Source: Candidatus Omnitrophota bacterium
GTDB lineage: Bacteria; Hinthialibacterota; Hinthialibacteria; Hinthialibacterales; JAKPRU01
Direction: 5' to 3'
Assembly: GCA_029570205.1 (NCBI GenBank)
Contig: JAKQSI010000068.1
Coordinates: 1-50,502 of the forward strand
Length of the DNA stretch: 50,502 bases
Of this stretch, positions 7,434-46,762 are shown piece by piece. The notes under the pieces are model-generated. The model saw only the letters and a program-made list of their open reading frames with translations, made no database searches and was not told where the DNA came from. The number at the start of each line of letters is the position of its first letter. Within the stretch, counting starts at the first letter, position 1. The position numbers were made by a program, and so were the translations under genes.

Positions 7434-8963
7434 ATGACAAAAAAACTAATGAGTTTGCACATCTCGTTGACGATATTCGGATTGATTGTTTTATCGGGAT
7501 ACGCCCAAGAGGAGCAGCTTCCCATCCGGTCGGGACCGGAGGCGGTGGGGATTGTGCCGCTGACCGGCGATGTGAACCTCTGGTATGAAAACGGTGGAAA
7601 CAGCAGCTACTGGCGGCCCGACTGCGATATACTCAGCAACGGCAATGCCATTGTCCTCGGTGGAATGCGAAAGGCTCCCTACGTGGATCATGTAGCGGAT
7701 TCCGAGAACGCGGTGGACCTGGTGGCGATTTTCTCGCCGGAAGGCGAATTGCTGGAACCGGCGCGAACAGCGTTTTTCACAAACGATGGACAGCCGTGGT
7801 TCAACACCATCTGCACAACCCGCAATGACGACAAGTTCTATGGGCTTTCCGCCGACACGGTTGGCGGTCGATCCGGGGAGCAATATGTGGTCCATACCAT
7901 TTGCAATGCCCATGTCTGGCCGGATGCCTTTCCGGGATATCCCAAGGATTACACCGGCGACTATCACACGGCCATCCAGGTTATTGGAAACGACGGAACG
8001 ATGCGGTCAAAATTAACCAGTCCTTATGGCTCCTATGTCAAGGAAAAAGGGGTTCTTCGCGGCGGAACGACCCGCTTCCTGTCCAACGGGAATATCGTCG
8101 TGCTGTACGAAGATCGTCAGCGCGGAACTCGACTCGATTATGTTTATGGCCAAACAAGCGGCGCGCTGACCGTCGGCGTTGTGATTCTGGGACCGGATGG
8201 CCGGATTGTGCGCGACATGTTCCCGATTTGCACAAAAGCGGGAGGGGAGAATCGGTTTGGACTGGCCTCCGGAGATGGATGGTTTGTGTGCAGGTATCGC
8301 GACAACCAGACCGGCATAACCATTGTGGCTTTCGATAACGAGGGGAACGAGTTGGGGCGATTCTATCCGGCGAATTCTATTCCCGAATACCAGGGAGATG
8401 GCGGTGGGGGCCGTGGAGATGCCAACGGGCTGGAAGCCATCGGCGATTGGCTTTATATCAGCGACCGTATTCAGGGAACTCAAGGATACATAACGAAGTA
8501 CCATGTCGGTCCGGATGGAATCTCGGTGATCAAAACCATCCATTTTATCGACCACCCGCTGAGCACATTCGAACACAACGCCGATATGGGTGTGGACAGT
8601 GCGGGGAATGTGATTGTGATGTGGCAGGATCACTCCTGGGAACGGTTTCAGACCGGCCGCTGGGAGGCGCTTGCTCGGATGTTCGATTCCAACCTGGAGC
8701 CGATCACGCCATCCTTTGTGATGTTTGAGCTCGGCAACAATACGGATGTTGATGAAATCCACCCGGTGCTTGGGCCCGGGCGAACCAAGCAATCCCGCAT
8801 CGCCATGAACGACCAGATCATCATCGCAATTGCGGAAACGAACAACGCGCCGTACGGGGACCCACTTTCGTATGTTGCGAATGAGATGTTCTCTTACACA
8901 TTCGTCGCGCGGGTTCTGCGGAATCCGTTTTATGTGCCCGTGAGGAACTGGGAGATTTATTAA
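7434..8963 (+). CDS. Secreted protein of unknown function, 'GPEAVG' family copy 1 (beta-propeller-like)
   Basis: A 509-residue exported protein. ATG 7434 starts a signal peptide (LHISLTIFGLIVLSGYA) followed by a mature N-terminus (QEEQLPIRSGPEAVGIVP). The rest is rich in short beta-type repeats built on NGNIVV, DSAGNVIVMWQD and GPDGRIV, resembling bacterial propellers that record attribute/value data. It is a paralogue of the product of 27315-28766: both start QEE-P-GPEAVG-VP, share 'LSNGN' and 'GQGGRGD / GGGGRGD' segments, and end in an aromatic tail (VPVRNWEIY here). It sits downstream of the WD40 gene and is closed by a long hairpin at 8976-9011. No catalytic motif identified. Confidence 0.8.
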   Translation: MTKKLMSLHISLTIFGLIVLSGYAQEEQLPIRSGPEAVGIVPLTGDVNLWYENGGNSSYWRPDCDILSNGNAIVLGGMRKAPYVDHVADSENAVDLVAIFSPEGELLEPARTAFFTNDGQPWFNTICTTRNDDKFYGLSADTVGGRSGEQYVVHTICNAHVWPDAFPGYPKDYTGDYHTAIQVIGNDGTMRSKLTSPYGSYVKEKGVLRGGTTRFLSNGNIVVLYEDRQRGTRLDYVYGQTSGALTVGVVILGPDGRIVRDMFPICTKAGGENRFGLASGDGWFVCRYRDNQTGITIVAFDNEGNELGRFYPANSIPEYQGDGGGGRGDANGLEAIGDWLYISDRIQGTQGYITKYHVGPDGISVIKTIHFIDHPLSTFEHNADMGVDSAGNVIVMWQDHSWERFQTGRWEALARMFDSNLEPITPSFVMFELGNNTDVDEIHPVLGPGRTKQSRIAMNDQIIIAIAETNNAPYGDPLSYVANEMFSYTFVARVLRNPFYVPVRNWEIY

Positions 8964-29321: not shown

Positions 29322-31811
29322 TCATTCTCCCGCGGCCCCCTTTTTCACCTGAAGGGGTGTCTCTCCGGGCGGGATGTCGTGGACGATTTCAAGCACGCCA
29401 TCCGTGACAGAAACCGGTTCGACCGGTTTTCCCGCGAGGATCGCACATGCTTTCTGAGCATCTTTCAGGGGGATTCTGACATGGACTTTCGGAATGGTCA
29501 TCGCGCCTTTGTTGGCGATTTTCCATCCAAGATCAGATATTCGGTTCAATTCGAGCGGCAGTTCGCCCATTTCCACACGTGCCTGGGGGGGCTGGTCAAA
29601 GAGGAGGAGAACCGTATGCGCACCCCGGTACATGTCGCCCTGTTTGCTTGTCATCTCTCCGCACCAGCGCGGAAGCAAAACAATTTCGGCAGGTCGCGCA
29701 AGGCCGGCCTTGTCCATTAGAACAACCGGAGGCTTTTTCTCCGGTTCCAGGAAAACCGGCTGAAGTTCCATAGGTTTGTTCCAGGCCCGATCCAGCGCCT
29801 CGATATTCTCCCAGCATCCGAGTCCTTTCCCCTCGACATACAGCGCCTGCGAACTTTCCCGCCAATCGTCCAGGTTGGGATGCCCGGTTCCAAGCTGCGT
29901 ATTGACCTGGACAATGTAGGAATAGTACGTCGTGTTCCAGGCGGTCCAGGTGACATTCAATTCGTCGGCCCGGATAATGCAGCCGCAGGGAGGATTGTGA
30001 TCCCAGTCATTAAACCCATGCCATGCGGCGGTGATAAACCCGCGCGCGAGTTTCGTTTTGTACCATTCACCGTCCAGGCTGGTCATAAACACGCCGCGTA
30101 CAGGATCGGATAGGTTGACAAATTTCTCCATACTGAACGTTCTCTCAATGACGGCATCCTTTTCATTCCAGAAGCGATGGCCGTTGTATTTCTTTCCGGA
30201 AGTCTTCGCGTAAGCCTGGTAGCGCACCAGGTTGGAGTTGACATCGAACAGGATGACATCCGGCAAGTCACGGAAACAGACAATGGTTGCGCTGGCCCCA
30301 TCGGGGATCCATGCTTCCATCGCGGCGATATCGCCCTCTTTCTTCGTTACCTGGGTTTGCCAATCGAAATGCCCGTCCAGCCCGGCGGAGGTGGCCTTGC
30401 CGGTAACCCGTATGGAGATTGCCCCGTATTCCGGACAGGCATCCATCAGAGGCCGATCCCGGATTGTGGAATCCGCTGTGAAACAGGCAAAATGGTTTTC
30501 ATCGCCGTGGGGATTGTAAACCAGATTCATATTTCTGGAGACGATATTCACAATCCCATCAGGAGCACGCTTTGCCCAAATCATGTCGCTGCGCGCCTCG
30601 TCCTTTATTCCGGGCGTCGGAAATGGGACCGGATTGGGGCAGTACTTGCTTCCCGGACGCCACAGATCGGGGAGTTCCTTGAGAATCCAGGAGACTTCGC
30701 TGTTCAGGTCACGCCAGGATTGCATGTCCCGGTCGCTGTATCGTTTGGCAGAGGCGGCAAACGCCAACCCGGCATCCAGGACGGCAAATCGCTGAACAGG
30801 CCAGAACAGGCTTCCGGCGTTCTCCAGCAGTTGCGGGTTGTCGAATCTCTGGCGCAACTCGGAATCGGCTTTCTGCATATCCCGGAATTCCTGGGAATCT
30901 GTAGCGGAGTGAATATCCGGCGAGAGATCGACCTGGACACTCTCCGTCTCCCCGCGTTTCAAAATGAACTTCGCCGTAGACCCCCGGACATCCGCAAGGG
31001 CAGAGTCTTCGACTTTCCGTTCGCCTGCAAACACAGGATCGATAAGCTTCACATGAAACACGCCCAAATCAGAGGCATGGGACTCGATATGAAACGGGCG
31101 CGTAGCCGGGTCTCCCGACAGTTCAAAGGTGCATTCTTTCAACGTATAAACAGACGTATTCCCTGTCACAGGAAGAGGGCCGACAATCCGGCCACCGGAG
31201 AGAAACCGGATTTTGTCGATGGTGGTTTCGACATCCTGTTTGGTCCATTGAGCGGTGGGTAAAAGCGTTTTGGTGCAGTTCCGAGCATTGACTGTGCCGC
31301 CGCGCCAGGTGAGTTCGCAGGAGCCGAGTTCAAGCGGATCGTACTGGTTGTCATGGTCATCGGCGACAATGAAATTCACGTTGTCCCACAAACCCGCCAC
31401 AGGGGGATCCACGCAGATCCAATAGAATCCCTCGACGGTGCAATTTTTCCATTCGACCAGACCCTGGGTCAGAAACAATCGGCGGTCGATCATCTGCTGC
31501 GGCGGCGGGTTTTGTCCAGGCGGAACGGGAACGTGGCAAAAACGCAGTGTTTCGCCCGGTTGAATAACCAGTTTGGCGGTCTGGCCGCGCATCTCAAACG
31601 AGCCGTAGATTGTGGCGACAGAGTTCTCGTAAGTCATCAATTCGGGCTTTGCAACCGCCTTGCAGAGTTCCTCCAGAGTGAATGTGCCGCCGGTGATCCA
31701 AACCTTGCCCGGAGAGCCGACACCCTGGCGCGCTTCCGCCCGGGATTCTCCACCAGACAGAATCGACAGCAGAATCAGAAAAATCGGCAAGGCTGTTCGC
31801 ATGGGTCTCAT
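29322..31811 (-). CDS. Large secreted protein of unknown family (829 aa)
   Basis: An exported 829-residue protein with a signal peptide (ALPIFLILLSILSGGESRA). The next 250 residues have beta-helix or jelly-roll character (GRIVGPLPVTGNTSVYTLKE, LVEWKNCTVEGFYWICVD). A central helical stretch follows (QEFRDMQKADSELRQRFDNP). The second half is beta-rich with many aromatics (AAWHGFNDWDHNPPCGCIIR, WTAWNTTYYSYIV), resembling carbohydrate-active accessory folds. I recognise no catalytic signature. ATG 31811 is chosen because it places the signal peptide correctly; the frame runs 16 codons further. It is divergent from the GH-A glycosidase, which suggests a shared role in glycan use. Function inferred only from context. 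Confidence 0.75.
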   Translation of the reverse strand: MRPMRTALPIFLILLSILSGGESRAEARQGVGSPGKVWITGGTFTLEELCKAVAKPELMTYENSVATIYGSFEMRGQTAKLVIQPGETLRFCHVPVPPGQNPPPQQMIDRRLFLTQGLVEWKNCTVEGFYWICVDPPVAGLWDNVNFIVADDHDNQYDPLELGSCELTWRGGTVNARNCTKTLLPTAQWTKQDVETTIDKIRFLSGGRIVGPLPVTGNTSVYTLKECTFELSGDPATRPFHIESHASDLGVFHVKLIDPVFAGERKVEDSALADVRGSTAKFILKRGETESVQVDLSPDIHSATDSQEFRDMQKADSELRQRFDNPQLLENAGSLFWPVQRFAVLDAGLAFAASAKRYSDRDMQSWRDLNSEVSWILKELPDLWRPGSKYCPNPVPFPTPGIKDEARSDMIWAKRAPDGIVNIVSRNMNLVYNPHGDENHFACFTADSTIRDRPLMDACPEYGAISIRVTGKATSAGLDGHFDWQTQVTKKEGDIAAMEAWIPDGASATIVCFRDLPDVILFDVNSNLVRYQAYAKTSGKKYNGHRFWNEKDAVIERTFSMEKFVNLSDPVRGVFMTSLDGEWYKTKLARGFITAAWHGFNDWDHNPPCGCIIRADELNVTWTAWNTTYYSYIVQVNTQLGTGHPNLDDWRESSQALYVEGKGLGCWENIEALDRAWNKPMELQPVFLEPEKKPPVVLMDKAGLARPAEIVLLPRWCGEMTSKQGDMYRGAHTVLLLFDQPPQARVEMGELPLELNRISDLGWKIANKGAMTIPKVHVRIPLKDAQKACAILAGKPVEPVSVTDGVLEIVHDIPPGETPLQVKKGAAGE

Positions 31812-31970
31812 CTCACTTTTTGGAAAGTTGTGCTTTATAGTAACGTGCCGTATGCACACAGGCCACCCGTTGAGTATGAGGATCGGAAAAAATCTGTCAA
31901 TGAGAAGATGTCCTCACACCAAGCGGAAAGAACCGGGCGGATGCCGCTGTGCATCTCCAGGAGGCGTGCC

Positions 31971-34589
31971 ATGTGGCAATGTAATCGTAGTCATGCGCGG
32001 ATCCTTCTTGCATTATGCACAATCTTCTTTCCGATGAACGGCATCCGTGCGGACACGGACAGAACACTATCGGAACGATTTTGTCTGGTCCATGCGGACC
32101 CGGAGTTTCTGCTCGAACTTGGTTCTGCCTGGAACCGTTATGATTTCTGCTGGAATGGAATTGAGCGGGTCAAAGGAGAATTCGATTTCCGGGATTTGCC
32201 TGCGCAAGTGGATCATTCCCTGAGCCTGGGTGTAAAGATTTTGCCGATTCTCGATTATGAGCCGGCCTGGGACCCACAGCATTCCCCGGCAGACGATGAG
32301 ACATTGGACTATTGGGCACGCTATGTCCACAAAACGATCACCACATTCAAGGGCAAGATGGAATACTGGCAGGCCTGGAACGAACCGAACAACGAGGGTT
32401 TCTGGAAGCCGCGCCCGAATTCACGCGATTATGCGGAATTACTTCGAAGGACCTGCCTTGCCGCAAAGGAAGCCGATCCGAATGTAAAGGTCCTCGGCCT
32501 GAATTGTTCGGATATCGATCTGAAGTTTACCGAAGAGGTATTTCGCTATGGGGGATTGAATTATTGCGACATTCTTGCGTACCAGCCGTATCGCATCGCG
32601 CCGGAAGTCGGTCACTTTGAAGAAGTGAAAGCGCTGCGGGAGTTGGTAGACAAATACGGCGAACAGCGTCCGATCTGGTTTACCGAAATGGGTTGGAACT
32701 CCGAGAACTTTCCCTATAAGGATGCAGCGGATTTGTTCGCGGAGGCTCCGAGTCGAAGACAGGCGGCGTTTCTGGTTCGGTACATGGTGATTATTCAAGC
32801 GGTCGAGATTGAAAAAGTATTCTGGTTTGCGCAGGGCGCAGGCGGACACGGAATTATGGTACACGAAGGCAGACGGAAACGTCTCGCTTTCTACGCCTAC
32901 CGCCACTTGATCCGGGAACTGGACAACTACCTGAGTGTGCGGGAAGTGATTCCCCACGGTTCGTGCGGATTGTATGCTTACTTGTTCACCCATCCGGACA
33001 GATCGGTCCTGGTCGCATGGAGCGTGAACGGCCCGCAGGAAGCACAGATTTCGGGCGCACCTCTCGCCTGCGAGGCGCGCGATATGCTCGGCAAGCCGAT
33101 CCCCACACCACAAAGTGAAATAATGACGCTGACGGGAGAACCTATCTACCTGTTTTTTGACCGGACCCCGCAGAGCCTGGCTCGGCTAGCCGAATTGCAG
33201 CCTGACCCGCCGCGTCTCTGGCTGGCCCCCGGCGAATCGCAAGAGGTTCACGTTCATTGGAATCCCTCCACGCAGACCGATGAACAAATCCGTCCGACCA
33301 TTCACACGACACGCGGTCTTTCGGTCAGACCTCGATCGATTACATTGGAATCGCAGAAAGCGGAATCATTCAGAATCCGCACGGGGAAACACACAAAACC
33401 CGGATCCGGCCTCGTGCGAATCTCCGCCGGTCAAAGCAGTTGGGACTTCGAAGTTAATATCGTACCGAAGACTCTCTGGAAATATGACAGCCCCATCGAG
33501 GGATGCCTGACACCGACATGGATTCGAGACGGCAACGGAAGTCCCGGGATTCTTGTCACCGGATACGATTCATCCGAACTGCTGTGCCTTTCGCCGGAGG
33601 GAACCCTGCGCTGGAAATTTGCGGCGGCCTCGCCCATCAACGATTCCGTCACGGTCGGTAATGTCGACGCCGATGCTCGTCCCGAGATTGTCGCAGCGAT
33701 GCCCGCCGAGCAGCGCGTGTTTGTGTTGAGTTCCGACGGCGTACAGAAGTGGCATGTAAGGTTACCGGGTCAAGCGGTTAAAGAAAATCCTGCCTGGCAC
33801 TGGACGCGGCCGGAAATAGCGGATCTCGACGACGACGGAATCGGTGAGATCCTGTACGCGGATCAATACGGCCAACTCAGCGCCGTTACAGGAGAGGGAA
33901 CGATTCTGTGGACGCGCAAGATCTCCGAAAGCGGATTTAGCCGTCCTGTGTGCGCCGAACCCGCAGGCGAAAGCGGCTCCGTGCAAATCCTCGCGGGGGA
34001 TAAAGCGGGCACGGTATATTGCCTTTCAAACAACGGCGACATTCTGTGGCGATCCTCCGTGGGAGCGGAAATCTCGGCAACGATTGTGGCAGGCCCGCTT
34101 ACCCCCAGCGGCCCGGTTCGTATCCTCGCCGGGACAAAAGGAGAACAACTACATTGCCTCTCGTTCAAAGGCAAGCCGATCTGGACAGCGGAACTCGGCG
34201 GGACCATGGACCTTGGTACAGGAATTGTAACGGCCGACCTCGACAACGACGGTACAAAAGAAATTCTGGCTTCATCCCGTAATCATGACGTGATCGCATT
34301 CCGCGAGGACGGCTCCGAAATGTGGCGGGTCGAGACAGGGGCGCAACTTCGCTCCGTGCCGGCGGTCGGCGATGTGGACAACGACGGCGGGCTGGAAATT
34401 CTGGTTGGATCTGCGGATTGGCTGCTGTATTGCATCGACCCCCGTGGAACCGTCGAATGGAAGGTGTATGTCGGGAACCGTGTCGATGCGGCGCCGCTGT
34501 TAGCGGATCTGAACGGGGACAACGTGGAGGACATTGTGTTAGCGGTGCGAGGAGGAAAGATTTTCGCATTCTCGGCCCAAGTCAATTGA
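31971..34589 (+). CDS. Secreted GH-A clan glycosidase fused to FG-GAP/PQQ-type propeller
   Basis: An 872-residue exported fusion. After a signal peptide (ILLALCTIFFPMNGIRA), residues about 30-400 form a TIM-barrel of glycoside hydrolase clan A, most like GH39. The acid/base is E138 in YWQAWNEPN and the nucleophile E239 in IWFTEMGWN, both at the expected strand ends. A beta-sandwich linker follows. From about residue 510 the protein is a propeller with repeated calcium-type D-x-D-x-D-G motifs (DLDDDGIGEILYAD, DLDNDGTKEIL, DVDNDGGLEILVG, DLNGDNVEDIVL). AGGAGG lies six bases before ATG 31971. The propeller may bind substrate or the cell surface. Substrate not readable. Confidence 0.88.
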   Translation: MWQCNRSHARILLALCTIFFPMNGIRADTDRTLSERFCLVHADPEFLLELGSAWNRYDFCWNGIERVKGEFDFRDLPAQVDHSLSLGVKILPILDYEPAWDPQHSPADDETLDYWARYVHKTITTFKGKMEYWQAWNEPNNEGFWKPRPNSRDYAELLRRTCLAAKEADPNVKVLGLNCSDIDLKFTEEVFRYGGLNYCDILAYQPYRIAPEVGHFEEVKALRELVDKYGEQRPIWFTEMGWNSENFPYKDAADLFAEAPSRRQAAFLVRYMVIIQAVEIEKVFWFAQGAGGHGIMVHEGRRKRLAFYAYRHLIRELDNYLSVREVIPHGSCGLYAYLFTHPDRSVLVAWSVNGPQEAQISGAPLACEARDMLGKPIPTPQSEIMTLTGEPIYLFFDRTPQSLARLAELQPDPPRLWLAPGESQEVHVHWNPSTQTDEQIRPTIHTTRGLSVRPRSITLESQKAESFRIRTGKHTKPGSGLVRISAGQSSWDFEVNIVPKTLWKYDSPIEGCLTPTWIRDGNGSPGILVTGYDSSELLCLSPEGTLRWKFAAASPINDSVTVGNVDADARPEIVAAMPAEQRVFVLSSDGVQKWHVRLPGQAVKENPAWHWTRPEIADLDDDGIGEILYADQYGQLSAVTGEGTILWTRKISESGFSRPVCAEPAGESGSVQILAGDKAGTVYCLSNNGDILWRSSVGAEISATIVAGPLTPSGPVRILAGTKGEQLHCLSFKGKPIWTAELGGTMDLGTGIVTADLDNDGTKEILASSRNHDVIAFREDGSEMWRVETGAQLRSVPAVGDVDNDGGLEILVGSADWLLYCIDPRGTVEWKVYVGNRVDAAPLLADLNGDNVEDIVLAVRGGKIFAFSAQVN

Positions 34590-36154: not shown

Positions 36155-37300
36155 CTACACATTTGCCGGAACCGAATAGCCGGACGCAACATGGGAGCGG
36201 TCCCATTCTGTTTCCGACTGAAGCGCCGCCAAGTGTGATCGGATGGTCAGTTCCGCACTGTCCGCAATCAGACGATCCAGCGATTCCCGGAAACACAGCC
36301 ACGGAATTCGCCTGTCCGGATTCCCCTTGAACACGAGTGTTGAGGAAAGCCAGGGTCCCAGAATCTCGCCGACATCTACATAGTCGCCCGAGAAGACAAT
36401 ATTATCCACTCCCCCCATGGCGGCGATCCCGGCCCCACAGGCCAGAAGAATTCGGTATTGAATTATTTCTCTTGCCAGGCGAACGTCCGGGTCGTCCGTT
36501 CGGAAAATTGCATCCACTGTTACATCTCTACCGACAATCCCGCGCAGGCCGCTTTCTCTAGTTAATACGTTATTGATCTGTTCCGGTCCCCATCCCATCT
36601 CCTTTCGCAATGTCAGAACAATCCCCGCGTCCAGCTCTCCGCATGTCGTTTCGCCGGGGATTCCTTCCAGTGGAGTCACTCCTCCTGTAACCATGACGGG
36701 GCGGCTTCTCATGACGGCGGTGATCTCCGGTTGAGGAATCAGACAGACGGACAGAATGCGTGCAGCGGGATTCTGTCGAATGGAATGTCTTGCGTAGTGA
36801 CACGCCCATTCGTGGAAAATGCCGTGAAATCCGTACCGCTCCAGTTTCAAACTCTTTGTGATGTCCGCATGAAGCCCGTAATAGCGTTCCCGAGCCGGTA
36901 AACCCGAAAAAAAGGAGGTCTCCGAGACCAGAACGATGGGGACTTCAGGAAAAGCCTGCCGACAATGCTCAATCAGCCGCAATTTCGGCGGCAGGTGCAG
37001 CGGAGCGCGTGGAACAAGGGCCTGTAAGCGGCGTATCACTTCAGGCGTAGCCACTACCGGTTTGGGGAATTCCGATGCCGTAAAGGTCAGGCGAACGGCT
37101 AGCGCGTCCGGCTCCGCCGCCGACAACCGTTTGCGGCACAATGACCGGATATGAAGCAATTCTTCGACTGTTTCCGTTTCATCGCCGTCGCCGCTGTGAA
37201 GCGGTTTCATATCACCCGTCAGGATCGGTTCACGACATCCGCCGGCGAAATACGCGAAATGAGAAGTGTAACGGCTTGGCCGGATAACCAGGATACTCAT
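36155..37300 (-). CDS. Degenerate acetate kinase-like protein (probable pseudo-kinase)
   Basis: A 381-residue homologue of AckA lying 19 bases after the true ackA. The fold is recognisable: ERYGFHGIFHEWA matches the RKYGFHGTSHQYV of AckA, TPLEGIPGETTCGELDAG matches SPLQGLIMSTRCGDLDP, and LTRESGLRGIVGRD matches the NKESGVLG region. Several catalytic positions are changed. The N-terminal VLVINAGSS-type asparagine loop is VIRPSRYTS. The VFDTAYH aspartate is VSETSFF. The STRCG arginine is ETTCG. The HRMVHGG loop is RLTFTAS. It could be a regulatory or inactive partner, or have a new substrate. ATG 37300 follows AGGAG. Confidence 0.82.
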   Translation of the reverse strand: MSILVIRPSRYTSHFAYFAGGCREPILTGDMKPLHSGDGDETETVEELLHIRSLCRKRLSAAEPDALAVRLTFTASEFPKPVVATPEVIRRLQALVPRAPLHLPPKLRLIEHCRQAFPEVPIVLVSETSFFSGLPARERYYGLHADITKSLKLERYGFHGIFHEWACHYARHSIRQNPAARILSVCLIPQPEITAVMRSRPVMVTGGVTPLEGIPGETTCGELDAGIVLTLRKEMGWGPEQINNVLTRESGLRGIVGRDVTVDAIFRTDDPDVRLAREIIQYRILLACGAGIAAMGGVDNIVFSGDYVDVGEILGPWLSSTLVFKGNPDRRIPWLCFRESLDRLIADSAELTIRSHLAALQSETEWDRSHVASGYSVPANV

Positions 37301-37319: not shown

Positions 37320-38552
37320 TCACGCGAGTGCATGTTCGCGGAATGAGCCTGCGCGGCTTAACAGCGAATAGGCATCTCTCGCAATCGCCAGTTCCTCATT
37401 GGTTTGAACGACCAGGATACGCACGGGGCTGCTTTCGGTTGCCACGTCTACCGGAGGTTCGCTTGGATTCCTGTTGCGTTCCGGATCGATCGACAGGCCG
37501 AATGTCTCCATGTCGGCGCATACAGCCCAGCGAACCGGCGCGACTTTCTCGCCGATGGTATCGGTAAAAATAACGGCGTCCGCGTACCCGACTGCCGCCA
37601 TGTAGGCTCCCAGATATTTTCGAATCCGCCACAGGTAGATTTGCGCGGTCAGATCCATTTTCGGGAACTGGCCTTTACCTTGCGCAATACCCGCGAGGAT
37701 GTCGCTGATATCCGCCGAGACCCCCGACATTCCAAGGACGCCGCTTTCTTTATTGAGAACTCTTTCGACCGATTTACAATCTCCGTTGTACTGCGCCAGC
37801 AGACGCAGGGTCAGCGCTGGATCCAGATCTCCGCAGCGTGTGCTCATAATCAGTCCCTGCAAGGGGGAATAACCCATCGTGTTATCGACGGATCGACCTT
37901 TCACGATAGCGCAGAGGCTCGCCCCGCCGCTGCCCAAATGGCAGCTGACCGCGTTAAACTCGCTCATCGGCCGGCCCAGGAATTTCGCGGCCTCGGTCGC
38001 TACGTACTGATGGCTGGTTCCATGGAACCCGTACTTGCGGATCCCCATATCTGTCGTCATCCACCGGGGGATCGCGTAGGTACGCGCGTAATCGGGAATC
38101 GTCGAATGATACGCCGTGTCGAACACGACTATCTGCGGCAGGTCCGGATACCGGGCTCGACAGGCTTTAACCAGGCCGGTCGCGGGCGGATTGTGTAATG
38201 GAGCCAAATCCGCCACCGCGTCCAGGTCGGCGATTACCTCTTCATTCACCAGCGCGTATCGCTCAAATCGAGTACCGCCATGGACCATGCGGTGCGCGAC
38301 CACGTCCGGCTTGAGCTCCGGATGCTTGGCTAGTAAGGCCATTACCTGCTCAAATGCCGTGGCCTGGTCGCGCATTTCGACATAGTGTGTCCCGTTGACA
38401 TCGCCGATGTGGTAGACAATACGCGAGGGTTCCGCCGTCGGCGGCCCGACCCGCTGTGCCTCTCCGCCCGCCCGCTGCACTTCGGACGGCATGGCGATGA
38501 CCCTGTACTTCAGCGAAGAACTTCCACAATTGAATACCAATATGTTCATCAT
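37320..38552 (-). CDS. ackA: Acetate kinase
   Basis: Interconverts acetate plus ATP and acetyl phosphate plus ADP. The 410-residue protein has the N-terminal signature NILVFNCGSSSLKYRV, the substrate loop HRMVHGGTRF, VVFDTAYHSTIP, KYGFHGTSHQYV and STRCGDLDP. These match the catalytic asparagine, arginines, histidines and aspartate of characterised AckA enzymes. AGGAG precedes the ATG-ATG pair at 38552/38549. It lies between the M20 deacylase and the degenerate AckA-like gene in a three-gene minus-strand operon under a sigma-54-type promoter. No phosphotransacetylase gene (pta) is in the window. Confidence 0.95.
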   Translation of the reverse strand: MMNILVFNCGSSSLKYRVIAMPSEVQRAGGEAQRVGPPTAEPSRIVYHIGDVNGTHYVEMRDQATAFEQVMALLAKHPELKPDVVAHRMVHGGTRFERYALVNEEVIADLDAVADLAPLHNPPATGLVKACRARYPDLPQIVVFDTAYHSTIPDYARTYAIPRWMTTDMGIRKYGFHGTSHQYVATEAAKFLGRPMSEFNAVSCHLGSGGASLCAIVKGRSVDNTMGYSPLQGLIMSTRCGDLDPALTLRLLAQYNGDCKSVERVLNKESGVLGMSGVSADISDILAGIAQGKGQFPKMDLTAQIYLWRIRKYLGAYMAAVGYADAVIFTDTIGEKVAPVRWAVCADMETFGLSIDPERNRNPSEPPVDVATESSPVRILVVQTNEELAIARDAYSLLSRAGSFREHALA

Positions 38553-38577
38553 GTCCGGCTCCTGTTCAGGCCAATGT

Positions 38578-39801
38578 TCAGATTTCGTCCGAGGTCCATC
38601 CGAATACAGGGACACCAATCAGGCTGTGAATGATAGCCGTTGTGCCGTACACGGCTTCGGTGATTTTGGCGACCTCAACACATTCATCCTGCACGTGGGC
38701 CTTCTCCTCGATACCGGGGCCGTAGCCGACTGTCGGGACATTGAATTCCTTTGTCAGGACGCCGCCGGCGGTTCCCATGCCCAGGCGGCCGAGTTCCCAC
38801 TTCCCCGGATGGACTTTTGCACAACCTGCCGCGGCGAGGGCGTCGCGGGCGTGATCGATCAGGGGATGAAACGGATCGGTCTGCCACGCATTCGTAATGT
38901 GTCGGACAACCGTCGTTTGGCCGTTGTATAGCCGTTGTGTCTCTTCCCGAACCAGCACATCTACCGCAACCGGTCCGCTGGACTCGGCCACCGTGGACAC
39001 ATTGTGTTTTAACTGACTGAGAACACACCCGACCTCTTCATCGGAGCGAAGTCGGCGATTCATTTCAATCGTCGCGCGCCGAAATCCGTTGTCATCGACA
39101 AACCGGGGCCGGCGAACGGTTAACTCTTCCGGTCCGACAGCCGTACCGTTTCCTGCATGGAGCTCCCCGATGATCGCACCGGCAGCATCCTCTACCTGAA
39201 ACGGATTGGTCCCTTCGACACGGACTTCGATTTCCAGCCATCCGTCATGCCCGTAATACAGTCCCAGTCCGGTCGGCTCGCCGAGGATAGCGTAGGATGG
39301 TTTGATTCCGAGTTCGGGCAGGGTCCGCTGCATCAGCCCGCGAACACCGACACTCCGCCCGTTCTCTTCGGCTACCGTCGCGGCGACTACCACATTGCCC
39401 CGGAGCGGCAACAGGCTACGCTTCAACAGAGCTCCTGCATACACCTGCGCCGCGAGGCCGCCTTTGCAATCCGTCGATCCAAGCCCGTACAGGAGGCCAT
39501 CCCGGATCAGTCCTTCGTACGGATTACACGACCAGGAATCCGGGTCCGCCGGGGGAACGGTGTCCATGTGGGAGTTCAACAGAACGGACCGGTCGCTATC
39601 GTAGCCGAAAAGAATTCCGATCACGTTCCCGTAGTCATCCCGCAGGACCTTGTCGTATCCCACTTTCTTCATCTGCTGTTCAACCAGGGCCGCGATCGCC
39701 CTTTCATTGAGACTTACACTCGGCACTCGAACGAGATGCTGTGCGAAACGCACCACACTCTCGTTCAGAATCTCGCTTTGCTGACGAAGCATTTTATACA
39801 T
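38578..39801 (-). CDS. M20-family metallo-deacylase/peptidase (ArgE/DapE/YgeY-like)
   Basis: A 407-residue two-zinc hydrolase that should remove an acyl or peptide group from a small molecule. The metal ligands are in LLNSHMDTVP, GSTDCKGGLAAQ, TVAEENGRS, ILGEPTG and the late KAHVQDECVEV. In the lid/dimerisation domain the usual histidine region after GHDGWLEIEVRVEG reads NPFQVEDAAGAI, so the canonical lid histidine is missing. The closest flavours are DapE/ArgE and YgeY. ATG 39801 follows AAGGAG by six bases. It is the first gene of the operon with ackA. Acetate release followed by AckA phosphorylation is an attractive inference. Confidence 0.85.
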   Translation of the reverse strand: MYKMLRQQSEILNESVVRFAQHLVRVPSVSLNERAIAALVEQQMKKVGYDKVLRDDYGNVIGILFGYDSDRSVLLNSHMDTVPPADPDSWSCNPYEGLIRDGLLYGLGSTDCKGGLAAQVYAGALLKRSLLPLRGNVVVAATVAEENGRSVGVRGLMQRTLPELGIKPSYAILGEPTGLGLYYGHDGWLEIEVRVEGTNPFQVEDAAGAIIGELHAGNGTAVGPEELTVRRPRFVDDNGFRRATIEMNRRLRSDEEVGCVLSQLKHNVSTVAESSGPVAVDVLVREETQRLYNGQTTVVRHITNAWQTDPFHPLIDHARDALAAAGCAKVHPGKWELGRLGMGTAGGVLTKEFNVPTVGYGPGIEEKAHVQDECVEVAKITEAVYGTTAIIHSLIGVPVFGWTSDEI

Positions 39802-39852
39802 TGTCGTTCTCCTTATTCGTTCATCAACTCTGGTATTCACCCTATTCTCTCC

Positions 39853-39868
39853 GCAATTGCCGTGCCGG
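39853..39868 (-). promoter_or_regulatory. Sigma-54 promoter for the deacylase-ackA operon
   Basis: On the minus strand the sequence reads CGGCACG-GCAA-TTGC. The -24 GG and -12 GC are separated by exactly ten bases, as in the consensus TGGCACG-N4-TTGC; only the first T differs. The predicted start, near 39842, leaves a 40-base leader before ATG 39801. A sigma-54 activator gene is divergently encoded 124 bases away, which strongly supports the call. Confidence 0.85.
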
Positions 39869-39927
39869 ATTTCTATTGTGCAATCTAACCTCTTGAATAC
39901 ACAGGGGTTATGGGGAGGCGGGAACAT

Positions 39928-39956
39928 TTGACAATATAGCGAGTATACTTCATAAT
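39928..39956 (+). promoter_or_regulatory. Sigma-70 promoter of the regulator gene
   Basis: TTGACA (39928-39933), a 17-base spacer and CATAAT (39951-39956) point toward the regulator at 39992. The -10 lies inside the palindrome at 39948-39981, so regulator bound there would be expected to block its own transcription. Confidence 0.75.
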
Positions 39957-39981
39957 GAAATATCACAATTTCATTATGAAG
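39948..39981. promoter_or_regulatory. 34-bp palindrome, probable activator-binding site (UAS)
   Basis: CTTCATAATGAAAT and ATTTCATTATGAAG are perfect 14-bp inverted arms around ATCACA. Each arm is itself an 11-bp dyad (TTCAT-A-ATGAA and TTCAT-T-ATGAA). The dyad centres, 39954 and 39975, are 21 bp apart, or two helical turns. The centre lies about 120 bp upstream of the predicted sigma-54 start, the usual distance for an enhancer-binding protein. Confidence 0.85.
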
Positions 39982-39991
39982 GATTTCTTAT

Positions 39992-41602
39992 ATGAAAGCA
40001 TCGGACCTTGAACTGAAGGAACTAATCGAGTTCGGCGACGGGCGGATTGACTTGCAGGGCCGTCGTCTCGTTCTTCACAGTATCAACGCATTCGCCCAGT
40101 TGCGCAGGGATTTGCTCGAAATGGTCGGTCTGGAACGGATGCGGCGGATTCTAACCCGATTCGGCTATTTCTGGGGCCAGGCGGACGCGGCTGCCATGAA
40201 ACGGGTCTTTGAGTGGGACAATGTAATGGAATGGCTTAAAGCCGGGCCGAGGCTGCATACCATTCAGGGTGTTGCGCGAAGTGTCGTGAAATCAATCCGC
40301 CTGGATGAATCAAGCGGCCGATTTCGGATGGAGGTGATCTGGCATGACTCCGGCGAAGCAGAGGAGCAGCTGCTCGAACTTGGAAAAACGGACTACCCGA
40401 TCTGCCGCATGTTGGCCGGCTATGCCAGCGGGTACTGTTCGTTCTGCGTCGGAAGAGATGTTTATTTCATCGAAGAGAAATGTCGCGCGAAAGGAGACCG
40501 CGTGTGTTCCGCTATCGGCATGGATCGCGATTCGTGGGGAGAGGAACTGAAAACTGTCCTCCCGTATTTCCAGTCGGAAGATATTCAAAGAACGATCCGA
40601 AATCTGACACGGGAGTTGCGCCGAAAGACCCGGGAAGTGGCGCAGCAGCGGAAGCGACTGGATTTGTTGGAACGCCAGGTCAATCCCTCCTTTGTAGAGG
40701 TCCACAGCGCGTCTTTTCGACGCGTCCTTGACCTGGCCGGTCGGATCGCGCCGTTCGACACATCCGTTCTCATTACCGGCGAAAGCGGTGTCGGAAAGGA
40801 GGTTCTTGCGCGTTATATTCATTCTCTTTCCACGCGGTCTAAGCAGGTGTTTGTCGGTGTGAATTGCGGCGCCTTGCCGGAAACATTACTGGAAAGCGAA
40901 TTGTTCGGACACAAGGCGGGAGCGTTTACCGGCGCAACGCGCGACCGTGTGGGATTGTTTGAACAAGCGCAAAAAGGAACGGTTTTTCTCGACGAGATTG
41001 GAGATGTCTCACCGGCCATGCAGCTGAAACTCCTGCGCGTCTTGCAGGAAAAGGAGATCATGCGTGTCGGCGAAAGTATCCCTCGAAAAATAGACATCCG
41101 TGTTATTTCGGCTACCAATCGCGATCTTTCCGAGGCGATACGGGAAGGACGGTTTCGCGAGGATCTGTACTACCGTTTGGGAGTAATCGAAATTGAAGTG
41201 CCGCCGTTACGTGAGCGAAAAGAGGACATTCTGTCTCTGGTTCGACATTTTGTACAGAAATTCTCCAGGAAATTTCAATTGCCGGAATTACGGCTGGATG
41301 CCACCTGCCTGGATATTCTTCAGGCGTATTCCTGGCCCGGTAATGTCCGTGAACTGGAAAATGCCATTGAGCGGGCCGCTGTTCTATCCCGGGATGGTGT
41401 GATTCTTCCTGAATGTCTACCGCCTGCGATTCAGCGTTCCGGCTTTTCCGGCATTCCCAGCGGCCGTGCCACATCCACGTTAGCCGAAGTGGAAAACAAC
41501 TATATCCGTGCGGTATTAAAACAGACCGGGGGAAACCGCACCAAAGCCGCCGACATTCTCGGCATCAGCCCCGCTACGTTATGGCGGAAGTTGAAGCATT
41601 AA
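39992..41602 (+). CDS. Sigma-54 activator of the XylR/DmpR type (XylR_N-V4R-AAA-Fis)
   Basis: A 536-residue enhancer-binding protein. Residues about 5-110 are an XylR_N sensor (MVGLERMRRILTRFGYFWGQ) and 140-200 a V4R domain with the CSFCVGRDVYFIEEKCRAKG cysteine region. A coiled B-linker follows (LRRKTREVAQQRKRLDLLE). The AAA+ domain has Walker A GESGVGKE, the sigma-54 contact loop GAFTGA and Walker B VFLDEIGD. A Fis-type helix-turn-helix ends it (NRTKAADILGISPATLWRKL). XylR_N-V4R sensors usually bind aromatic small molecules directly. It is divergent from the deacylase-ackA operon, which carries a matching sigma-54 promoter. AAGGA precedes ATG 39992. Confidence 0.95.
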   Translation: MKASDLELKELIEFGDGRIDLQGRRLVLHSINAFAQLRRDLLEMVGLERMRRILTRFGYFWGQADAAAMKRVFEWDNVMEWLKAGPRLHTIQGVARSVVKSIRLDESSGRFRMEVIWHDSGEAEEQLLELGKTDYPICRMLAGYASGYCSFCVGRDVYFIEEKCRAKGDRVCSAIGMDRDSWGEELKTVLPYFQSEDIQRTIRNLTRELRRKTREVAQQRKRLDLLERQVNPSFVEVHSASFRRVLDLAGRIAPFDTSVLITGESGVGKEVLARYIHSLSTRSKQVFVGVNCGALPETLLESELFGHKAGAFTGATRDRVGLFEQAQKGTVFLDEIGDVSPAMQLKLLRVLQEKEIMRVGESIPRKIDIRVISATNRDLSEAIREGRFREDLYYRLGVIEIEVPPLRERKEDILSLVRHFVQKFSRKFQLPELRLDATCLDILQAYSWPGNVRELENAIERAAVLSRDGVILPECLPPAIQRSGFSGIPSGRATSTLAEVENNYIRAVLKQTGGNRTKAADILGISPATLWRKLKH

Positions 41603-42699: not shown

Positions 42700-42990
42700 T
42701 TCCTCATACACACTCGGGGTCTCTTTGCTTCGGAGCTCGCGAAAGAGAAGGCTTGGGAAAGGAGTCCGTGTGTGCGTCGGCTGATGAGCCGAATGGGAGG
42801 GAAGGAATCGTTCCGGGAAGGGCGAGAGGATTTGCAGGAGTTGGTCGGGATTGAGGTGGGGACGAAAGCGGTAGAACGGATGGCGGAGGCGGTTGGGGAA
42901 GCGATCCGGGGAGTGGAGGAGGAGCGAGGGGAGCGAATTTGGAGTGGGAAAGTGGGGCCGTGTTGTGCGCCCGCACCGGCTGAGGAGGAC
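42700..42990 (+). mobile_element. Fragment of an ISKra4-like transposase
   Basis: A plus-strand coding remnant of about 90 residues (ELAKEKAWERSPCVRRLMSR, then SFREGREDLQELVGIEVGTK, then AVERMAEAVGEAIRGVEEER). The pattern of a helical segment, 'L..L.GI.VGTK.VER..EAVGEA' and an acidic helix resembles the region before the catalytic domain of ISKra4-family transposases. No start, catalytic domain or inverted repeats are visible. Its right edge, near 42990, coincides with the point where the neighbouring secreted-protein gene loses similarity to its paralogues, so this insertion probably truncated it. Confidence 0.55.
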
Positions 42991-43684
42991 GCCGTGGCAA
43001 GTACGATGGGTCCGGTGGATAGACAACATAGGCCAGACCCGTAGCGTCAGTGATCGGCGAAAGTCCAATTCCAGGACTCGATATTCCTGGACCGCCGACA
43101 AATCCCAACAAAGTTACTTTCGTGCCACTCACCGGATTCGAACTCTCTCCATCAATCACACGAACCATGATATATCCCCAGATATCGCACCCTGAAATAT
43201 ACCACGAGCCGGGGATCAACGTCACATCGGTAATTGTGTGCCCATCGAGGTCAAAAAGATCGGCTGATAGGAAGGATATTTCTCCGAAGCCACACGCCGC
43301 ACTCCTGTCACCTGTCAGGAAAACTGCAAATGACAAATGCAGTACGGACGGTGACGGCCCGATCCCGGTTCTGACAATACCGATATCCAAGTATCCGTTA
43401 TCGCATGAAAACGCCGCCTCAAAGGACGCATCAACCGGCTTGAGTTCCCTGGCCTCAAAGACTCCCAGATCAATTCTGAATCCAGCTGTCCCAATTCGTT
43501 CCGCACCCGTAATGGATAACACCAGCCAGGAGGGAATCGGTGTTGTGCCAAGCATATCGCAGATGGGCACCAGTCCCTGCGTAAGAGACACTTCTACACT
43601 CTCTGTCCGCGCTGCTATTGCCGGGACAATTAGGGGCAGACAGCAACAAACGAAAAGACGGGAATGATGGCTAATATTTCGCAC
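42990..43684 (-). pseudogene. Tandem secreted-protein family, copy 4, 3'-truncated
   Basis: The N-terminal 230 residues are closely related to copy 1 (45839-46762): signal peptide FVCCCLPLIVPAIA, then VEVSLTQGLVP, the IPSWLVLSITGAERIG domain, CGFGEISFLSADLFDLDG, DVTLIPGSWYI, NPVSGTKVTLLGFVGGPGIS and DATGLAYVVYPPDPSYLP. The other copies then have about 70 more residues ending in DWGLY(E/D). Here the frame instead runs into a proline-rich, non-homologous tail translated antisense to a transposase fragment (to 42704). It starts at GTG 43684 where copy 1 has ATG. Almost certainly a truncated remnant. Confidence 0.75.
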
Positions 43685-43722
43685 TTGATTCTGCTCCGGA
43701 ATTCCGTATTCCGCTGCATTCC

Positions 43723-44622
43723 CTAATCATACAGCCCCCAATCCTCCACCGCGCTGGGGCCGCCGACAAGGATCGTGACTTCCTTGAACAGCCTTGAGCT
43801 CCCATCCGGAGGGTCGTTGATTCCCAGCTCGACAACAGCCTCAAACGGATCAAATATCAGCGATGTATCCTCCCCCGACTCAATACGAAAAACCGCCCAT
43901 ACTTTCGTTATGGATCTCACGATCCATCTACCGTTCTCCATATAAAAGTCGCCGAAACATGGAATTGCGGGATACATAACGCCGGCGTATCCCGTGGAGT
44001 CCGTGCGATACCTGCCACCTCCGATACCCGCTCCACCGATCATACCGGTGTGAACTACCCACGCGTTCGCCACAGGCGTTTGCCCGTCTGCCTCCAAAAG
44101 ACGAACAGGAATCGTCTCAAAAGCGTCGGTCATGACATACCAGGACCCAACGCTGAACGAAACATCGGAAACGGCCCGGTTGTCAAGATCCTTCAACTCA
44201 GCATGAAGAAAAGAGAACTCGCCAAAGCCAACCCCATATTCACTCATCGGTGTTCCCCACGGAACGTAGAGAAGAATATCGGTATACGACACGTTCTGTG
44301 CGCTCACCGACGAGACGCGGCTGAGATTCAGATGAAGAGTTTTCTCCTGTTGGACATATTGCACGCTGAAGCTGGGATCGAGCGAAATGACATTCGTAGC
44401 GTCAAATGGCCCCAGACTGATGCTGAAATTGCCCTCCCGAATTCTCTCCGATCCGGTTACGCTCAAAACCAACCGGAAGGTAAGGCGGTACTGGTCAGCA
44501 TCATAGACACGGACTCCCCGGGTGAGAGAAACCTCCACAGCATTCCCAGTTTGGGCTACGGCTGCCAAGAGCAAACACCCAAACAGGAATATCAGATGGC
44601 GTAATCTGGTCATTTCCGTCAT
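43723..44622 (-). CDS. Tandem secreted-protein family, copy 3
   Basis: A 299-residue exported protein of unknown function. Signal peptide LRHLIFLFGCLLLAAVAQTGNA, then the family's first beta domain (VEVSLTRGVRVYDADQYRLT, LVLSVTGSERIREGNFSISL). A second one follows (GVGFGEFSFLHAELKDLDNR, SDVSFSVGSWYV), then a carboxypeptidase-regulatory-like domain (QTPVANAWVVHTGMIGGAGI, TDSTGYAGVMYP). A last beta domain ends in PSAVEDWGLYD. The frame is open to 44781, and that extension shares a duplicated upstream DNA segment with copy 2. I place the start at ATG 44622 (or 44613) because it sits right before the signal peptide. It is the most divergent intact copy. Confidence 0.75.
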   Translation of the reverse strand: MTEMTRLRHLIFLFGCLLLAAVAQTGNAVEVSLTRGVRVYDADQYRLTFRLVLSVTGSERIREGNFSISLGPFDATNVISLDPSFSVQYVQQEKTLHLNLSRVSSVSAQNVSYTDILLYVPWGTPMSEYGVGFGEFSFLHAELKDLDNRAVSDVSFSVGSWYVMTDAFETIPVRLLEADGQTPVANAWVVHTGMIGGAGIGGGRYRTDSTGYAGVMYPAIPCFGDFYMENGRWIVRSITKVWAVFRIESGEDTSLIFDPFEAVVELGINDPPDGSSRLFKEVTILVGGPSAVEDWGLYD

Positions 44623-44718
44623 TATAGGTGACTCTGGAATATCCGGTGTTCGGTCTCGGACACCCGGAACAAGTCCCGCCCAAGGAAATGTGATGGCCAT
44701 ATTCACTTCTTTCGCCTC

Positions 44719-44850
44719 ATTCAAGGACCCCGAGAGTGCCGCCTGTAAAATCCCGTATAATTCTAACGCATGTTGGTCCATATCGTTTTGTCGTCGCGCC
44801 GGTCTACTCGTTACTCATACAGCCCCCACTCCTCAACCGCGCTGGGGGCG
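44719..44850. repeat. Direct repeat unit between tandem copies 3 and 2
   Basis: About 130 bases highly similar to 45747-45880. It covers the upstream part of copy 3 and the C-terminal coding end of copy 2 (GCATGTTGGTCCATATCGTT is a shared stretch). The roughly 1,028-base spacing shows that the array grew by tandem duplication. Confidence 0.8.
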
Positions 44851-45734
44851 CGCACAATGATCGTGACCTCTTCGAAAAGGTCCGTGAACCACACGCGATC
44901 TTCATTGACTCGCAGTTCCACAAGCGTGTCAAACGGTTCAAACCGGACCGTTGTATCCGCTGCCGATTCCACGCGAAACCAGGCTCTCAAATCCACATCC
45001 GTCCGTGGCTCCGTCCTGTTCGGTGGTTCCATCAGAAATCCCCATTCCACCGGATACATGACATACGTAAGACCTTCTGAATCCGTCGGCTGGCCGACGC
45101 TGGAAATACCCGCTCCGCCGACAAGCCCCGTCATTTTAACCCTCGCATTCTCAATCGGTGTTATTCCATCCGATCGCAGAACACGAATATAAATGCCGGC
45201 AGGCGCATCGGTCCAGTAATACCATGATCCGGGTATCGTTGTGACATCTTCAATGGTCTGCCCTTGAAGATCCGTGAGTTTTACACTCAGGAATGTAAAC
45301 TCTCCGAATCCACAGTCTTGATAGCCAAGGTAAGGGAGAGGCGACTCGGTGGGACTTGAGATCAGGATGAGTCTGACAACAAGCGTATCGGTTTCGTCCG
45401 GAGCACTGGTGCGCTCACGGAAGATCTGCAGTCGGGCAACGGTATCATCCTGATATATTCCCGCAAATACAGGAGGATTCCGATCCAGGACAACAGCGTA
45501 AACCGCAATGAACGGCCCCATATCGATACGGATATCCGCTCGATCCACCTGCCCGGCACCCCTTATGGTCAAATCGAGTGCTCCTGCGGGGCACTCTGAA
45601 GGAAAAGCAGTCGAAATTTCACAAAACCCTTGCTCCAACGACATTTCCACGGTGCTCGCCCAGGAGCCTGTCGAGACAAGACATAACCAAGTCAGGAAAA
45701 GAAATGTCTGACGTAACGTGACACATGTATCCAC
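44811..45734 (-). CDS. Tandem secreted-protein family, copy 2
   Basis: A 307-residue exported protein of unknown function with the same layout as copies 1 and 3: signal peptide FLFLTWLCLVSTGSWAS, VEMSLEQGF, then DCGFGEFTFLSVKLTDLQGQ and EDVTTIPGSWYYW. The regulatory-like domain is TPIENARVKMTGLVGGAGIS with TDSEGLTYVMYP, and the C-terminal domain ends in VRAPSAVEEWGLYE. GTG 45734 is chosen because GAGGT lies eight bases upstream and the signal peptide follows; the open frame extends 25 codons further through duplicated DNA. Its length equals that of copy 1. No catalytic residues stand out, so a structural, adhesive or binding role seems likeliest. Confidence 0.8.
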   Translation of the reverse strand: MDTCVTLRQTFLFLTWLCLVSTGSWASTVEMSLEQGFCEISTAFPSECPAGALDLTIRGAGQVDRADIRIDMGPFIAVYAVVLDRNPPVFAGIYQDDTVARLQIFRERTSAPDETDTLVVRLILISSPTESPLPYLGYQDCGFGEFTFLSVKLTDLQGQTIEDVTTIPGSWYYWTDAPAGIYIRVLRSDGITPIENARVKMTGLVGGAGISSVGQPTDSEGLTYVMYPVEWGFLMEPPNRTEPRTDVDLRAWFRVESAADTTVRFEPFDTLVELRVNEDRVWFTDLFEEVTIIVRAPSAVEEWGLYE

Positions 45735-45746
45735 CGTTCTTACCTC

Positions 45747-45880
45747 ATTCAAGGACTTCGTAATCGCCGCCGGTATAATCCCGTATGATCCTGACGCATG
45801 TTGGTCCATATCGTTTTGTTGTCGCGCCGGTTTACTCGTTACTCATACAGCCCCCAATCCTCAACCGCGCTGGGGCGGCC
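45747..45880. repeat. Direct repeat unit between tandem copies 2 and 1
   Basis: Partner of the 44719-44850 segment. It includes the shared string TTTACTCGTTACTCATACAG and the reverse complement of the AVEDWGLYE coding end of copy 1. Confidence 0.8.
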
Positions 45881-46762
45881 AGCAATAATCGTGACTTCCT
45901 CGAAAGGATCGCCCCAATAGGCATCTGCCTTAACTCGCAGTTCCACCAGCGTGTCGAACGTGTCAAACGCTACTGAGACGTCCGCAGTCGGCTCGACACG
46001 CAGCCAAGCCTTGATACAGGAACACGGCACGCACTCGTCCGTCCCTGCCGGGTCAGGATTGTGCAACGGCAAGTATGATGGCTCAGGGGGATACTCGACA
46101 TAGGCCAGCCCCGTGGCGTCGGTGATTGGTGGACGTCCCCCATATCCCGGACTCGATACTCCGGGACCGCCGACAAATCCCAACAAGGTTACTTTTGCGC
46201 CACTGACCGGATTGGAACTCCGTCCGTCAATCACACGAACCATAATATATCCCCAAATATCATATCCGGGGAGATACCACGAGCCGGGGATCAGCGTCAC
46301 ATCGGTAATTGCATCTCCATCGCGGCCAACAACATTTGCGGAAAGGAAAGCAATTTCTCCGAAACCGCATCGATGATCCCTTCCACTTCCGTAAAACAAT
46401 CCAAACGATAGATACAGTACGGAAGGGATTGGTTCGACCCCGGTTCTGGTCACGCTAACATACAGGTGTCCGTTGTCGCACGAAAACACCGCGTCAAAAG
46501 ATGGATGGACTGGCTTGAGTTCCCTGGCCTCGAAAATCCCCAAATCGACCCCGAAGTCCGCTCTTCCGATTCTGTCCGCCCCTGTAATGGAAAACACGAG
46601 CCAGGAAGGGTACTCAGTTCCCCCGTAGAATATATCCCTATTGGGAACCAATCCTTGACTAAGAGACACTTCCACACCGACCGCCTGGACTGATGTTGTT
46701 GGGATGATTATGAGCAGACAACAACAGATGAACAGAGCGAATTGATGGCTGTTGCCTTGCAT
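45839..46762 (-). CDS. Tandem secreted-protein family, copy 1
   Basis: A 307-residue exported protein of unknown function. Signal peptide FALFICCCLLIIIPTTSVQA, then VEVSLSQGLVP, a beta domain with LVFSITGADRIGRADFGVDL, then CGFGEIAFLSANVVGRDGD and DVTLIPGSWYLPGYDIWGYI. Next come a regulatory-like domain (NPVSGAKVTLLGFVGGPGVS, DATGLAYVEYPPEPSYL), an acidic-rich beta domain (VELRVKADAYWGDPFEEVTI) and the tail PSAVEDWGLYE. It begins with ATG 46762, six bases after the stop of the metalloprotease gene, so the two are probably co-transcribed. Copy 4 is its closest relative. The clustered CCC in the signal peptide is shared with copy 4. Confidence 0.82.
   Translation of the reverse strand: MQGNSHQFALFICCCLLIIIPTTSVQAVGVEVSLSQGLVPNRDIFYGGTEYPSWLVFSITGADRIGRADFGVDLGIFEARELKPVHPSFDAVFSCDNGHLYVSVTRTGVEPIPSVLYLSFGLFYGSGRDHRCGFGEIAFLSANVVGRDGDAITDVTLIPGSWYLPGYDIWGYIMVRVIDGRSSNPVSGAKVTLLGFVGGPGVSSPGYGGRPPITDATGLAYVEYPPEPSYLPLHNPDPAGTDECVPCSCIKAWLRVEPTADVSVAFDTFDTLVELRVKADAYWGDPFEEVTIIAGRPSAVEDWGLYE

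Follow-up and report, generated by a model that had tools for sequence, protein, structure and literature searches.

How is an operon that encodes an M20-family deacylase and two acetate kinase-like proteins controlled, and what part is played by the regulator gene transcribed away from it? The two are separated by a 190-bp divergent space (positions 39802 to 39991 of the window, the whole stretch of 50,502 nucleotides analyzed here), with the deacylase start codon at 39801 on the minus strand and the regulator ATG at 39992 on the plus strand. A preliminary description of this space had placed an XylR-like regulator opposite a deacylase-ackA operon, and the domain architecture and gene families agree with it. 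Here, we report a comparison across orthologous loci, by which the space is very probably a divergent XylR/DmpR-type control region. This type of switch is well known; its operator sequence and the operon that it serves are apparently undescribed.

Signals in the divergent space

Features of the divergent locus, with positions in the window (a dot marks features given without strand)
Feature	Position	Strand	Basis
Degenerate acetate kinase paralog	36155..37300	-	
Acetate kinase homolog (likely start, Met24 of ORF 37320-38618)	37320..38549	-	
M20-family amidohydrolase/deacylase, YgeY-like, 407 aa	38578..39801	-	
Shine-Dalgarno AAGGAG of deacylase	39809..39814	-	sequence
Sigma-54 −24/−12 promoter CGGCACGGCAATTGCG of deacylase-ackA operon	39852..39867	-	sequence, conservation
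Sigma-70-type promoter TTGACA-N17-CATAAT of regulator gene	39928..39956	+	sequence; TTGACA conserved
Inverted repeat made up of the two dyads (arms of 14 bp, asymmetric 6-bp center)	39948..39981	.	
Dyad 1, TTCATAATGAA, center 39954; proximal half of proposed UAS, overlapping the regulator's −10	39949..39959	.	
Dyad 2, TTCATTATGAA, center 39975; distal half of proposed UAS	39970..39980	.	
Shine-Dalgarno AAGGA of regulator, 8 nt ahead of ATG	39979..39983	+	sequence
XylR/DmpR-type bacterial enhancer-binding protein (bEBP), 536 aa: XylR_N, V4R, sigma-54 AAA+ (GAFTGA), HTH_8	39992..41602	+	

The −24/−12 promoter described earlier as facing the operon with exact spacing reads GG (39866-39865), N10, GC (39854-39853) on the minus strand, with a predicted +1 at about 39841. 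It differs from the consensus TGGCACGNNNNTTGCW at two positions; only one other site in the window (7635-7650, both strands searched) is equally close, and comparison with 300 shuffles of the window's own intergenic region gave p = 0.010. Besides GG-N10-GC, the TGGCAC/TTGC context of sigma-54-dependent promoters is present, and rpoN, whose absence would have counted against the preliminary description, was found in the genome as a single gene (E = 2.1e-62).

Facing the regulator, TTGACA (39928-39933) and CATAAT (39951-39956) stand on the plus strand as described, with 11 of 12 matches and a predicted +1 at about 39963, between the dyads. The two TTCATwATGAA dyads are likewise where they had been placed, their centers 21 bp apart, and are the only occurrences of TTCATNATGAA in the window. 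Dyad 1 overlaps CATAAT, in keeping with the claim that the repeat covers the regulator's −10, and dyad 2 extends by 2 nt into the regulator's Shine-Dalgarno sequence. The two together had been called a perfect 34-bp palindrome; an inverted repeat it is, but because its 6-bp center is asymmetric (28 of 34 bases symmetric), not a perfect one. Its position, given as about 120 bp upstream of the sigma-54 start, is roughly right, with dyad centers at about −113 and −134.

None of 300 shuffles of the window's own intergenic region equaled the dyad pair (p = 0.003). A scan of the 4.39-Mb genome that allowed up to three mismatches found the double dyad at this locus only and gave no match to the reversed control pattern; the combined dyad-plus-promoter pattern finds this locus and one further match. 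Because the double dyad has this single genomic occurrence, a wider regulon was set aside; the operator appears to serve one locus. In a text search of openly licensed PMC papers for a TTCATwATGAA operator, the matches listed (15 of 21) deal with other organisms or topics and include no sigma-54 study, and no relevant paper has TTTCATnnTGAAA; the regulated module was equally absent from the openly licensed PMC literature searched, and operator and module seem undescribed. The main text of a Desulfovibrio sigma-54 regulome paper contains no TTCA motif and no V4R/XylR regulator.

Conservation across orthologous loci

Orthologs of the divergent pair were picked by regulator protein similarity alone, not by motif, which gave 5 in the window's phylum (window included) and 12 in the phylum of a Lentisphaerae-labeled public MAG (that MAG included). 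Fifteen intergenic regions besides that of the window were readable (G147 was unreadable upstream), and at each of these 15 loci the deacylase gene is divergent and followed by ackA-type genes (with only part of ackA matched in the Lentisphaerae-labeled MAG); no other neighboring gene is common to the whole set. Among 14 genomes of the window's phylum, the deacylase and the kinase-like gene are both present in the same 6 and both absent in 8. The regulator was found in five of the six deacylase-bearing genomes (the G002 copy is cut by a contig end); in G001, the remaining one, only 14 bp of contig precede the deacylase.

An alignment of related intergenic regions had been proposed earlier as a check, and both the −24/−12-like site and the pair of TTCATwATGAA dyads are kept in all 15, counts that include close relatives and are therefore not 16 independent events (the 16 genomes make up roughly 9 lineages). 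Summed over the 15 regions, mismatches came to 28 for the sigma-54 site (shuffles: mean, 66.4; minimum, 56), 5 for a single dyad (mean, 35.6; minimum, 30), and 33 for the dyad pair (mean, 99.0; minimum, 89); one of the two dyads is degenerate in several lineages. In the 16 genomes, the −24/−12 site precedes the deacylase ATG by 39 to 55 bp. Some orthologous sites are weak, with three mismatches in G005, G006, G244, G050, and G398 and the −12 GC altered to TC in G010 and to GT in G006. Between the window and its nearest relative (G002), all 28 positions of the dyads (22/22) and TTGACA (6/6) agree, against identities of about 50% in the flanks and 45 to 70% in other stretches, and about half of the synonymous sites of the operon genes differ (pS, 0.48 to 0.57).

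Measured from the −12 C, the center of the near dyad is 97 to 101 bp away in 13 of 16 genomes (all values: 101, 101, 99, 99, 100, 144, 100, 111, 111, 99, 101, 101, 101, 99, 97, and 99 bp). The steps from 100 to 111 bp and to 144 bp (the latter in L039) correspond to about one and about four helical turns. From operator to regulator start, the distance is much looser (34 to 258 bp). By these spacings, it is unlikely that the dyads serve mainly to autoregulate the regulator through its sigma-70 promoter, with the sigma-54 promoter activated by other bEBPs or from solution. That reading draws on the −10 lying 3 bp before the dyad 1 center, together with a good −35, in the window, G002, and G133, on the intact TTGACA of the nearest relative, and on L039, where the dyads have stayed close to the regulator (at 58 bp and across a weaker −10) as the sigma-54 distance grew. 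In G006, G253, and G244, however, the dyads are 100 to 111 bp from the sigma-54 site with the regulator start 128, 222, and 258 bp away, respectively. The spacing of the dyads to the sigma-54 site is far tighter than that to the regulator.

Read as RNA, the inverted repeat might be a terminator or a 5′-leader hairpin that masks the regulator's Shine-Dalgarno sequence; in the window its predicted fold is stable (−23.4 kcal/mol; z = −4.37), and it was also flagged as terminator-like. Pairing between the dyads, however, is complete (13/13) in the window and its nearest relative and falls to 8 to 12 of 13 in the other 14 genomes, whereas the half-site core TCAT, like the TG, is unchanged in dyad 1 except for a single base in three relatives that are nearly identical to one another. 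In three genomes, over 100 bp separate the repeat from the start codon, and since the predicted sigma-70 start falls inside the repeat, its first arm would go untranscribed. With between-dyad pairing not conserved, we reject the hairpin or terminator as very unlikely; recognition of DNA by protein is favored by the retention of the half-sites where pairing is reduced (14 of 16 genomes).

The protein in question is very unlikely to be one unrelated to the adjacent regulator. The pairing of dyads and regulator is read from sequence, and a search of the genome with the regulator gave 17 matches (E ≤ 1e-60), at least 16 of them further bEBP-like matches; against a different protein, the dyads co-occur with the adjacent regulator across two genome groups, their sigma-54 spacing is kept, and the genome has no second double dyad. 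We therefore assign the operator provisionally to the adjacent regulator, by proximity and co-conservation, and consider with high confidence that the dyads are best explained as its enhancer site (UAS).

Proposed switch and related systems

We infer the following sequence of events for an enhancer site of this kind. The regulator would bind the two dyads, one dimer per dyad, and with a spacing of 21 bp, or two turns, both dimers would lie on one side of the helix. A small molecule, which may be related to the operon's substrate, would act at the N-terminal XylR_N/V4R domain and trigger assembly of the regulator, which would then loop the intervening 100 bp or so to the promoter. Its GAFTGA-bearing AAA+ domain would open the sigma-54 RNA polymerase at 39852-39867, an opening predicted to turn on the operon's three genes (M20 deacylase, acetate kinase, and kinase-like). 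Binding would probably also limit the regulator's own synthesis in the window's lineage, since these dyads extend over both the −10 and the start point of its sigma-70 promoter.

Activation and autorepression had both been predicted from the dyads, and activation is the better supported of the two: the spacing between dyads and sigma-54 site holds even in genomes whose regulator gene begins 128 to 258 bp from the dyads. Autorepression is plausible as a secondary function in lineages with dyads over the −10. The best −10 lies 10 to 13 bp before the dyad 1 center in G005 and G010, and as coverage of the −10 recurs, autorepression is likely in the lineages of the window, G002, G133, L039, G005, and G010. 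It is not universal: the −10 or predicted start overlaps dyad 1 in several lineages, the dyads of G006, G253, and G244 are distant from the regulator start, and autorepression is not required where the operator sits far from the regulator gene. Some of the −10 likeness, moreover, comes free because CATAAT is also part of the dyad.

Group 2 bEBPs, which include XylR, DmpR, MopR, and PoxR, are ligand-activated enhancer-binding proteins (PMC7175178), and the regulator shares with these four the XylR_N and V4R sensor, the GAFTGA AAA+ domain, HTH_8, and the cysteines and glutamate of the zinc site. Within the family, XylR and HbpR cross-bind weakly (PMC3040749). UASs of the XylR/DmpR subfamily lie 100 to 200 bp upstream of the sigma-54 promoter, compared with about 100 to 130 bp here; unlike in that subfamily, the neighboring operon encodes an M20 deacylase, AckA, and an AckA-like protein and not aromatic catabolism. 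A close arrangement to set beside it is the Acinetobacter mphR-mphK region (PMC3063778), which also has a divergent XylR/DmpR-type regulator and operon with inverted repeats between them, a −12/−24 promoter for the operon, and a −10/−35 promoter for the regulator; there, however, the operon encodes phenol hydroxylase and the inverted repeats are three and incomplete, whereas here there are two near-perfect dyads. Pu of the TOL plasmid, controlled by XylR, likewise has two activator UASs upstream of its −12/−24 promoter, with a defined integration host factor (IHF) site between them and the promoter (PMC3900584). No IHF-like site at a conserved position was found between dyads and promoter across the orthologous regions, where the best IHF matches (one or two mismatches) are at nonconserved positions.

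From comparison alone, the locus offers a concrete candidate operator and promoter for an XylR-type regulator in bacteria without genetics. Given its inducer, the regulator-operator pair could become an orthogonal sensor part.

Regulator sensor and operon products

The regulator's domains were identified as XylR_N (80.8 bits; cutoff, 23; E = 6.5e-23), V4R (29.6 bits, just below the Pfam cutoff of 31; E = 7.2e-7), Sigma54_activat (AAA+; E = 2.9e-69), and the Fis-type helix-turn-helix HTH_8 (E = 8e-16). The best solved relative is CapR/DmpR (6iy8; E = 4e-108), and the sensor half matches MopR best, with the DmpR sensor also aligning. An assignment as MobR was rejected (score far under the curated cutoff). 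The window protein has GAFTGA in its loop, and six orthologs have GSFTGA (G005, G014, G050, G174, G398, and G262). The recognition helix, I[SG]xxTLWRK, is nearly invariant among orthologs, and the four aligned positions of the zinc site (C..E..C..C) are invariant in the window protein and its orthologs.

In DmpR, His100 and Trp128 hold the phenol hydroxyl (PMC7264223), and the window regulator resembles it in having His and Trp at these positions. The Trp is kept in 16 of 17 orthologs and the His in 6 of 17 (window included in both counts); beyond the closest orthologs, most differ from phenol sensors in having Gln, Cys, or Leu in place of the His (11 of 17), so the ligand is probably not phenol for the family as a whole. 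The locus would place an XylR_N/V4R sensor over something besides aromatic catabolism.

The best named family for the deacylase is YgeY, at 208.5 bits; this is far under the curated cutoff of 321, and an identification as true YgeY was rejected. The lid region of this YgeY-like protein has diverged. Some orthologs (G005 and G220) have Gln in place of the second active-site Glu (EEN), and G006 has two tandem deacylase copies.

For the kinases, we used the catalytic residue numbering and roles of Methanosarcina thermophila AckA. The acetate kinase keeps these residues except Asn211 (HLGNG), which is Ser (HLGSG) in every complete copy of the module read. In the paralog, which sits behind ackA in nearly all loci of the module, most of these residues (N7, S10, K14, R241, and others) are missing from every copy. 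Its dN/dS of 0.06 to 0.20 indicates purifying selection, and as this holds despite the lost residues, the paralog is best seen as a maintained pseudo-enzyme and not a decaying gene. Judged by its predicted products, the operon is unusual in combining a variant acetate kinase with a conserved degenerate paralog, and a conserved pseudo-acetate kinase beside an active-looking one merits biochemical attention. Tentatively, and with more doubt than confidence, the four genes might form an undescribed metabolic module of uncultivated bacteria in which an XylR-type sensor whose pocket has changed responds to a nonphenolic acyl-amide or its product, the YgeY-like amidohydrolase frees the acyl group, and the Asn211Ser kinase, with the dead paralog as partner subunit, makes the acyl phosphate.

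Elsewhere in the window, a 1,078-aa ORF (31353-34589, plus strand) has, by eye, a glycoside hydrolase-like domain followed by repeated beta-propeller-type segments. The minus strand carries four adjacent ORFs at 42704-46762 (307 to 352 aa); clustering groups at least the first three as paralogs, and three of the four end in PSAVE(D/E)WGLY(D/E).
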